This document shows, in pieces, positions 1-35,484 of a stretch of DNA of 64,000 nt. Numbering within the stretch: position 1 is the first letter of the stretch; each line of letters begins with the position of its first letter. The notes beneath the pieces are model-generated. The model had not been told where the DNA came from. It made no database searches and saw only the letters and a list, made by a program, of their open reading frames with translations. The position numbers were made by a program, and so were the translations under genes. The DNA is taken from the NCBI RefSeq assembly GCF_947581915.1, contig NZ_CANPWG010000013.1, positions 1 through 64,000 on the forward strand. The letters are read 5' to 3'. Origin of the DNA: Candidatus Palauibacter scopulicola (GTDB lineage: Bacteria; Gemmatimonadota; Gemmatimonadetes; Palauibacterales; Palauibacteraceae).

Positions 1-73
<73 letters not shown>

Positions 74-31277: not shown

Positions 31278-31416
31278 TAGGCACATCTGTACTCGATGTC
31301 CACTTTCCGGGGCGTCTTGCGTGCGCCCTGGGCGGTTCGGACTTTTCCGGGACACGACACCAAGTGGTCCTGATCACCGGTTCAGGGGACCGCGGTCATC
31401 AGCTGGAGCTCTTGCA

Positions 31417-33885
31417 ATGCGACACGATCACAGCCCTCGAATCCTTCGATTCTCCCTCTCCTTCGCGTTCCTCCTCGCCGCGGCCACGACGGATGTCGCC
31501 GCGCAGGAGGGGGCGGACGGATACCAGACGCCGGCCGCCGAACTCGCCGCGCTCGTCGACGCCCCCACGACCCCGGGCATCAGCCTGAGCCCCGACGAGT
31601 CGTTGATGCTGCTCACGATGCGGCCCAGCCTGCCGTCGATCGGTGAGGTGGCGGCGCCGGAGCTGCGGATCGCCGGACTGCGCATCAACCCGCGCACCAA
31701 CGGCCCCAGCCGCGCGCGGCCCTCGAACGGGCTCGCGCTACGCACGTTCGAGGGCGAAGAGCGCGCCGTGACCGGGCTGCCGGAGAACCCGCGCATCCGC
31801 AACGCGCGCTGGTCGCCCAACGGAAGCACGGTGGCGTTCACGCACGACACCGACTCGGCCGTGCAGCTCTGGATCCTGGATGTCGCGTCCGCGGCGGCGC
31901 GACGGCTGTCGGACCTCGACCTCGTGAACGTGGGCTTCGGAGCCCCGTTCAACTGGTCGCCCGAAGGCGACTTCCTCTACGCCATGGCGGCGCCGGCCGG
32001 CCGCGGCCCGGCTCCCGCGGAGCCGATGGTGCCGACGGCGCCAATGATCGAGGAGACGTCGGGGGAGGCGGCCCCCGCCCGCACGTACCAGGATCTGCTG
32101 CAGGACCAGCACGATGAGGCGCTCTACGAGTATTACTCCACGGCGCAGCTGACCCGCGTCGGCCTCGACGGATCGGTGGCCATGGTCGGCGATCCGTCGA
32201 TCTTCTCGGGCGCCTCGCCGTCGCCGGATGGCGAGCACCTGCTCGTGCAGACGACGCACCGGCCGTACTCGTACCAGGTGCCGGCCTCCCGCTTCCCGCG
32301 CACGATCGAGGTGTGGGACACGCAGGGGAACGTGGTCCACCAGGTCACGGAACTCCCGCTCCAGGATGGCGTCCCCACGTCGTTCGGGTCGGTGCCGACG
32401 GGCGTGCGGTCGATCTCGTGGCGCGCCGACGCGGACGCGACGCTGTACTGGACGGAGGCGCAGGACGGCGGCGACGCGCTCGCCGAGGCGGACATCCGCG
32501 ACCGGGTGTTCATGCACGCGGCGCCCTTCTCCGGGGAGCCTGTCGCGATCGCCGACCTCGCGCTCCGCTACGGCGGCGTGATGTGGGCGGATGAGGGATT
32601 CGCCTTCGTGAACGAGAACTGGTTCTCCACCCGCCAGCAGCGCACCTACCGGATCGATCCGGACGCGCCGGGGGAGGTGGAGCTGATCTTCGACCTGCAG
32701 ACGGAGGACCGGTACAACGACCCCGGCTTCCCGATGTTCACGACGAACGCGCGCGGACAGGGCGTCCTCATGACCGCCGACGGGGGGTCCTCGATCTACC
32801 TCGCGGGACAGGGCGCTTCGCCCGAAGGCAACCGTCCCTTCCTAAGGAAGCGGAACCTCGAAACGGGAGAGGAAGAGGAGTTGTTCCGTTCCGAGGCGCC
32901 GTACTACGAGGGCGTGGTCACGCTCCTCGAGGACGGGCGACTGATGACGCGGCGGGAGTCGGTGGACGAGCCCCCGAACTACTTCCTGCGCGACCTCGAG
33001 CGGGGGACGATCAGCGCCGTGACCGAATTCCCGCACCCGTATCCGCAGTTCGCCGGCGTTCGCAAGGAGGCGATCCAGTACGAGCGCGAGGACGGCATCC
33101 CGCTCTCGGCCACGCTCTACCTGCCGGCGGACTATGACCAGGAGCGCGATGGTCCGCTCCCGACCTTCGTGTGGGCGTATCCGACCGAGTTCAAGAGCGC
33201 GGCGGCGGCCGGCCAGCGGCGCGACTCGCCCTACCAGTTCACGCGGATCCCCTATGGCGGCGCCGTACCGTACGTGACCCGGGGCTACGCCGTGCTCGAC
33301 AACGCGTCGATGCCGGTCATCGGCGAGGGCGATGCGGAGCCCAACGACACCTTCCGCCAGCAGCTTGTGGCGAACGCACAGGCGGCGGTCGACGAGGGCG
33401 TGCGGCGCGGCGTCGTGGATCCGGACCGGGTCGGCGTCGGCGGACACTCCTACGGCGCCTTCATGACCGGCAACCTGCTCGCGCACTCCGACATCTTCCG
33501 GGCCGGCGTGGCGCGCAGCGGCGCGTACAACCGGACGCTGACGCCGTTCGGCTTCCAGCGCGAGCAGCGGCTCTTCTGGGAGGACCCGGACCTCTACCTG
33601 TACATGTCGCCCTTCATGCACGCGGACAAGGTGAACGAGCCCATCCTCATCATCCACGGCGAGGACGACAACAACTCGGGCACCTTCCCCATCCAGTCGC
33701 GGCGCTTCTACGCGGCGCTCAAGGGGCTGGGCGCGACGGCGCGGCTCGTCTTCCTGCCGGCCGAGAGCCACGGCTACGCGGCGCGCGAGTCGGTTCTGCA
33801 CGTCCTGTGGGAGACCGACCGCTGGCTCGAGATGCACGTGAAGCCGGCGAAGCCCGTCACGACGACGGACGACGCGGGAAGCTGA
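31417..33885 (+). CDS. Secreted S9-family serine peptidase (prolyl oligopeptidase type)
   Basis: 822 residues with a Sec signal peptide (cleaved near VAAQEG). An N-terminal beta-propeller with WSPNGST-like blades precedes an alpha/beta hydrolase domain with S678 in GGHSYGAF, an Asp in HGEDDNNSG (D750/751) and H785 in ESHGYAA. The ATG at 31417 has GGAG upstream and opens directly onto the signal peptide. It likely trims peptides in the periplasm. The next gene overlaps its last bases. Confidence 0.9.
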   Translation: MRHDHSPRILRFSLSFAFLLAAATTDVAAQEGADGYQTPAAELAALVDAPTTPGISLSPDESLMLLTMRPSLPSIGEVAAPELRIAGLRINPRTNGPSRARPSNGLALRTFEGEERAVTGLPENPRIRNARWSPNGSTVAFTHDTDSAVQLWILDVASAAARRLSDLDLVNVGFGAPFNWSPEGDFLYAMAAPAGRGPAPAEPMVPTAPMIEETSGEAAPARTYQDLLQDQHDEALYEYYSTAQLTRVGLDGSVAMVGDPSIFSGASPSPDGEHLLVQTTHRPYSYQVPASRFPRTIEVWDTQGNVVHQVTELPLQDGVPTSFGSVPTGVRSISWRADADATLYWTEAQDGGDALAEADIRDRVFMHAAPFSGEPVAIADLALRYGGVMWADEGFAFVNENWFSTRQQRTYRIDPDAPGEVELIFDLQTEDRYNDPGFPMFTTNARGQGVLMTADGGSSIYLAGQGASPEGNRPFLRKRNLETGEEEELFRSEAPYYEGVVTLLEDGRLMTRRESVDEPPNYFLRDLERGTISAVTEFPHPYPQFAGVRKEAIQYEREDGIPLSATLYLPADYDQERDGPLPTFVWAYPTEFKSAAAAGQRRDSPYQFTRIPYGGAVPYVTRGYAVLDNASMPVIGEGDAEPNDTFRQQLVANAQAAVDEGVRRGVVDPDRVGVGGHSYGAFMTGNLLAHSDIFRAGVARSGAYNRTLTPFGFQREQRLFWEDPDLYLYMSPFMHADKVNEPILIIHGEDDNNSGTFPIQSRRFYAALKGLGATARLVFLPAESHGYAARESVLHVLWETDRWLEMHVKPAKPVTTTDDAGS

Positions 33886-34676: not shown

Positions 34677-34788
34677 CCTGCTTGGCGGCCGCCGCTGTCG
34701 CGCGGCCCCCCGGTGCGATAGCGTTGCCGGGCCGGCGGACGGCGGCGGCGTTCGCGGGCGCACACAAAAGGAAAAGGGAGACACGGAG

Positions 34789-35484
34789 ATGCGGATAATG
34801 GACGCGCGTCACGCCCGGTTGTGGGCGGCGGGAGTCGCGCTGGCGGTGGGAGCGGCCGGCTGCGCACCCGGGGGAGACACCGGAGATGCCGACGCCTCCG
34901 CGGCGGCGGGGGCCGACGAGGCCGCGGCGCAAGAGGCGGCCCAGGTGGCGCTCGGCCCCGTGGACGGGCACGACCTGCCCCCGGTGGACCTCGAGCGCGT
35001 GCTCGCCGGCGGCCCGGCGCCCGACTTCACGGCCCTTTCAAGCGCGGGCGAGCCGATCACGCTTTCGGACTACCGCGGAGAGAGGAACGTCATCCTCTTC
35101 TTCTACCGCGGCCACTGGTGACCGTACTGCGCAAAGCAGCTCGGAGAGCTGCGAGACTTCATGACGCCCGAACAGCGCGAACGGACCCAACTCCTGGCGA
35201 TCGCCCCCGACAGCCCCGAGGACATCGGGCTCATGATCGACCGCGTCCTCGAGGACTACGACTACGCGCTCGACTTCCCGCTCCTGTCCGATGACGGCTC
35301 CGCGATCACGAACCGCTACGGCCTCCTGAACGAGAACTCCGGGCGCGGACGCCAGCTCCCGCACCCCACGACCTACGTCATCGACATGGACGGCACGGTG
35401 CGCTGGAGCTTCACGGAGGTGGACTACACCGTCCGCCCGGAGCACGCCGACATCCTCGCCGCGCTCGAAGCCCTGGAGCGCTAG
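34789..35484 (+). CDS. Peroxiredoxin-like selenoprotein, lipoprotein (Sec111)
   Basis: One 231-residue protein read through an in-frame TGA at 35119-35121. A lipobox signal (AVGAAGC) anchors it outside the cytoplasm. Before the TGA lies VILFFYRGHW, after it PYCAKQLGEL; related peroxiredoxin-like proteins have YRGxWCPYC here, so the TGA stands exactly where the first redox cysteine is expected, giving a U111-x-x-C114 pair. Similarity continues without a gap to the end (GLLNENSGRGRQLPHPTTYVI, broken here only for length). A hairpin right after the TGA fits a bacterial SECIS. It probably reduces peroxides or thiols in the periplasm. Confidence 0.9.
35119..35152 (+). promoter_or_regulatory. UGA codon plus SECIS-like hairpin
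   Basis: Downstream of the TGA, GCAGCTC (35136-35142) and GAGCTGC (35146-35152) form a perfect 7-pair stem with loop GGA. The loop centre lies 23 bases after the TGA, within the range required for bacterial SelB-dependent SECIS elements, whose apical loop normally contains GG or GU. The hairpin is inside the coding sequence, as in known bacterial cases. Confidence 0.75.

Follow-up and report, generated by a model that had tools for sequence, protein, structure and literature searches.

A predicted lipid-anchored, peroxiredoxin-like UxxC selenoprotein of Candidatus Palauibacter with a UGA conserved across Gemmatimonadota

The window, a 64,000-nucleotide stretch of DNA from Candidatus Palauibacter scopulicola, carries a peroxiredoxin-like (Prx-like) gene whose reading frame is interrupted once (Table 1). 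Between its ATG and its terminal TAG (35482-35484), the sole in-frame interruption is a TGA at codon 111. Under translation table 11 the frame ends there; with the TGA translated as selenocysteine (Sec, U), it stays open over 231 residues and reads ...FFYRGHW-U-PYCAKQL.... The Pfam domain AhpC-TSA (PF00578) bridges the TGA, spanning residues 74-206 (E=1.1e-29, 103.3 bits against a cut-off of 26), which agrees with the preliminary description of two halves in one frame, parted only by the TGA at 35119, with homology running up to a normal stop. Within the genus, dN/dS was 0.05 on the 5' side of the TGA, and the two blocks on its 3' side gave 0.02 and 0.17. A scan for promoters and terminators found nothing.

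Table 1. Features of the window and selenocysteine genes located elsewhere in the same genome.
Feature	Position	Strand	Basis or score
Prx-like (AhpC/TSA fold) UxxC selenoprotein gene, predicted, exported	34789..35484	+	231 residues, ATG to TAG
AGGGAG, likely ribosome-binding site, 8 nt 5' of ATG	34775..34780	+	sequence reading, inference
Lipoprotein signal peptide, lipobox Cys25 (VGAAGC/AP)	34789..34863	+	sequence inference
TGA, very probable selenocysteine codon, U111 in W-U-P-Y-C	35119..35121	+	TGA in all distinct orthologues checked, except 3 TGC
Cys114, partner of U111, aligned to the AhpE/BCP peroxidatic Cys	35128..35130	+	
Bacterial SECIS hairpin, predicted, GCAGCUC-GGA-GAGCUGC	35136..35152	+	fold, conserved stem, covariation, synonymous conservation
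tRNA truncated by the window edge	1-73	-	Rfam RF00005
selA	C65:152808-154136		484.7 bits
selB	C65:195004-196866		370.5 bits, cut-off 242
selC (tRNA-Sec)	C65:202226		79.7 bits, cut-off 47; ARAGORN agrees, anticodon tca
selD (locus L030)	C30:54584-55510		366 bits; own in-frame TGA, SHGAG-U-ACK

We surveyed orthologues across 395 Gemmatimonadota genomes. A long or full-length orthologue was present in 85, with one in-frame TGA in 82 and none in three. The 82 TGA genomes showed no further internal stop, and an extra TAG in four orthologue matches proved to be the ordinary terminal stop. Inspection of the codon itself showed TGA at 67 loci (63 distinct) and TGC at three, and four further loci with a variant motif also have the stop at that position. 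All 15 Palauibacter genomes that have the gene have the TGA. Cysteine homologues also occur in other phyla, on plasmids of Paraburkholderia, Rhizobium and Variovorax, where the motif reads FYRGGWCPYC or FYRGAWCPYC with TGT or TGC at the position of U111. Aligning homologues at position 111, the check proposed at the outset, thus found cysteine both in the three TGC orthologues and in the plasmid homologues, and bore out the proposal that the TGA takes the place of the first cysteine in YRGxWCPYC. The locus therefore shows a mark of bacterial selenoproteins, a conserved in-frame UGA aligned with Cys elsewhere.

The three TGC genomes belong to a single genus (g25) and form one clade (support 100/98), which amounts to one state change on the tree; the first tree had two very long branches (L018 and L044) and was rebuilt without both. 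Because the TGC forms nest among UGA forms, the TGC versions likely arose from UGA, by a change from Sec to Cys, on a tree rooted with a distant outgroup and with moderate support for the nesting branches. Of the 82 UGA genomes, 78 yielded a tRNA-Sec (UGA genomes against the rest, Fisher p=1.7e-9, with genomes treated as independent though related); the three TGC genomes yielded none. The other four UGA genomes are all drafts, and each has selB above the cut-off. No selB reached the cut-off in the three TGC genomes; their best matches, frames of about 413 aa scoring 162-168 bits, look like EF-Tu, judging by length and score.

On the same tree, the Palauibacter copies (L042, L043, L059, L060 and L064-L075) sit within the sequences of another family (f6), and the gene is missing from the other sampled genera of Palauibacter's own family, a pattern that could reflect either acquisition of the gene by Palauibacter through transfer or its loss on several occasions. 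In one genome a second copy (L114, G256) has lost the second Cys of UxxC: its TGA at 556 is followed by CCC-TTT-TCC, which would give U-P-F-S.

Downstream of the UGA lies a hairpin whose 7-bp stem closes a GGA loop that starts 21 nt past the codon. The published bacterial SECIS model asks for a loop of 3-9 nt, a stem of 4-16 bp and a distance of 16-37 nt from the UGA, together with a G among the first two loop nucleotides (PMC13188914), and the hairpin has all of these. Each UGA orthologue retains six or seven of the seven stem pairs, and the loops are GGN or GUG, with G at position 1 and G or U at position 2. The TGC versions are down to 4-6 pairs and have lost the loop G in two of three cases. 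The outer stem pair is G-C in 32 orthologues and U-A in 32, with about three exchanges between the two on the tree, and the compensatory swap is seen in 12 of 28 distinct rows. The covariation score was reached by none of 500 shuffles and lay above every slid control; since five of the seven stem pairs are invariant, the covariation signal comes from a single pair. From codon -10 to codon +13 relative to the TGA, the sequences of the genus are almost devoid of synonymous change (2/22 columns variable, compared with some 40% outside this region). Among the 1,201 TGA triplets in the window, the one at 35119 alone is followed, at this spacing, by a stem of 7 bp or more whose triloop starts with G, by a descriptor that was derived from this hairpin itself and that the selD gene and a second Prx-like gene of the genome (below) satisfy independently. 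Folding energy gave no extra stability over shuffled sequence (z about -0.1 to -0.4), so the case for a SECIS element rests on conservation.

Selenocysteine incorporation would further call for selA, selB, selD and a tRNA-Sec in the organism, as the preliminary description predicted. All four are present in the Palauibacter genome, a draft metagenome-assembled sequence of 3.6 Mb in 79 contigs that is 96% complete; the genus occurs in sponge and coral metagenomes. The selD gene has an in-frame TGA of its own, followed by a 9-pair hairpin with a GGA loop, and SelD with Sec is already listed among known selenoproteins (PMC13188914 Table 1). More widely, tRNA-Sec exceeded the Rfam cut-off in 279/395 sampled Gemmatimonadota genomes, which shows that many members of the phylum use selenocysteine.

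Because the UGA is conserved, is followed by the SECIS hairpin and coexists with the sel machinery, we conclude from these sequence comparisons that the UGA at 35119 is read as selenocysteine, with a probability of about 0.95. UGA read-through does occur in bacteria, and a suppressor, or leakage without SelB, might instead insert Trp or Cys. We regard this as very improbable: UGA is a normal stop here, ending the adjoining peptidase gene (31321-33885) and many orthologues, and the UGA and hairpin track selB and tRNA-Sec, giving way to TGC versions where both are missing. A decaying pseudogene, in which the TGA would be a nonsense mutation, is less credible still. The frame does end at codon 111 under table 11, but conservation of the TGA across the phylum refutes decay: the identical codon stands in 82 genomes as the sole internal stop, dN/dS lies far below 1 past the TGA, and the hairpin is conserved and compensated. 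A sequencing or assembly error for TGC, conceivable in a draft metagenome-assembled genome and named beforehand as grounds for abandoning the selenocysteine reading, can be dismissed because many independent assemblies from different studies carry the same TGA, as do 82 genomes. Reassignment of UGA in the genetic code was likewise rejected, as neighbouring genes terminate in UGA.

The N-terminus points to the cell envelope. Cys25 of the lipobox is invariant in six aligned orthologues, and a simple lipobox pattern matched in 26 of the 66 loci checked; by eye, the remaining loci mostly have variant lipoboxes or N-termini resembling signal peptides or membrane anchors. The window protein is therefore predicted to be exported and lipid-anchored.

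An AlphaFold model with Sec built as Cys (pLDDT 89.9, pTM 0.88) adopts a peroxiredoxin fold, and its best match in the PDB is Mycobacterium tuberculosis AhpE (1xvw; TM 0.75/0.83). In a profile alignment to AhpE and BCP, C114 falls on the peroxidatic Cys and U111 on the Thr of TxxC, while R107 stands at the conserved Pro and Pro193 at the conserved Arg. The window protein thus lacks the PxxxTxxC motif and conserved Arg of classical peroxiredoxins, having R107, U111 and P193 instead, and the placement of U111 at the TxxC Thr argues that it is not a classical peroxiredoxin. The earlier proposal took the replaced residue to be exactly the redox Cys; on this alignment the peroxidatic position is that of C114. 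Hence, the predicted active site is a thioredoxin-like UxxC carried by a peroxiredoxin fold, not the TxxU of a Sec-peroxidatic peroxiredoxin.

What the UxxC centre does is a separate question from how the UGA is decoded. We infer an envelope thiol:disulfide oxidoreductase or peroxidase, and the sequence somewhat favours an oxidoreductase over a classical peroxidase role. The alternative to an envelope oxidoreductase, a classical peroxidase that uses Sec as its peroxidatic residue, would suit the PF00578 domain and the peroxiredoxin fold with AhpE as its best match. It nonetheless appears unlikely, given a thioredoxin-like UxxC, the residues found at the Thr, peroxidatic Cys, Pro and Arg positions, and scores below the cut-off of all peroxiredoxin models.

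With the UGA read as selenocysteine, the pathway would run as follows. The hairpin (35136-35152) would be bound by SelB with its Sec-tRNA-Sec; the ribosome would insert selenocysteine at UGA 35119 and go on translating until the TAG (35482). The resulting protein would be exported and lipid-anchored, with U111 and C114 forming a UxxC redox centre on the peroxiredoxin fold. Sec U111 may then attack a disulfide or peroxide, with C114 resolving the selenenyl intermediate, so that the protein's most likely role would be to reduce disulfides or peroxides in the envelope.

Other Prx-like loci came to light alongside the window gene. A paralogue on contig C46 of the same genome (L018/L121; codon at 1714 of oriented L018) appears to be a second UxxC Prx-like selenoprotein, with the motif FFRGRW-U-PYCREEQ and an 8-bp hairpin with a GGC loop; its TGA is present in 13/13 genus genomes examined, with one stem pair broken in two of them (L129 and L133). 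A Prx-like frame on contig C31 (G000:C31:58-708; L023/L027) has an in-frame TGA in TRG-U-TVQ, of the TxxU type, with a hairpin loop of 8 nt, and adjoins genes resembling CcdA and a TlpA-like thioredoxin. A paralogue on contig C21 (L019) was rejected as a selenoprotein because its TGA lies in upstream sequence, outside the protein.

We consider it an even chance that the window gene and its orthologues make up a separate clade, so far undescribed, of Prx-like selenoproteins anchored in the envelope, with Sec as the ancestral and nearly fixed state across a bacterial class and one change to Cys, in a genus that lost the Sec machinery. If so, the clade may define a Sec-dependent redox pathway of the envelope. 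Near-fixation of Sec, together with a single conversion to Cys in a genus that lacks both selB and tRNA-Sec, makes the family a clean natural experiment on Sec retention. Standard annotation cuts the gene in two at the UGA, and no NCBIfam model matches the window protein at its cut-off; the family is therefore probably mis-annotated across the phylum.

Compared with known families, the window protein most resembles the Prx-like UxxC/UxxU selenoproteins, in line with the preliminary description, which noted Sec-containing peroxiredoxin-like proteins in metagenomic surveys. A Sargasso Sea survey described a Prx-like selenoprotein family that combines a peroxiredoxin fold with a thioredoxin-like UxxC (PMC1088965), the Global Ocean Sampling survey counted 225 Sec and 2,740 Cys sequences of 'Prx-like 1' (PMC2398784), and 'Prx-like thiol:disulfide oxidoreductase, UxxC' is listed among the selenoprotein kinds predicted with high confidence (PMC13188914 Table 1). 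The window protein shares with this kind the PF00578 domain, UxxC in place of CxxC (W-U111-P-Y-C114, not TxxU), a bacterial SECIS element and distant Cys homologues in other phyla. It differs from the kind, to which we liken it by domain and motif (reference WP_010940744.1), in belonging to a lipoprotein or exported Gemmatimonadota clade with Sec nearly fixed. PrxU (TxxU; NCBIfam NF040737) has the same fold and domain, but the Sec of the window protein lies three residues earlier, in UxxC, and its score of 35.6 bits is far below the cut-off of 270. SelL-related redox proteins (NF040769) show weak similarity over residues 76-153, at 40 bits against a cut-off of 120. AhpE, a 1-Cys peroxiredoxin, is nearest in fold but has TxxC with one catalytic Cys, whereas the window protein has UxxC and a Pro at the Arg position. 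The literature searched held no report of a Prx-like UxxC selenoprotein in Gemmatimonadota. The kind is thus already known, and what appears new is its occurrence in Gemmatimonadota, with an unusual phylum-level predominance of Sec.
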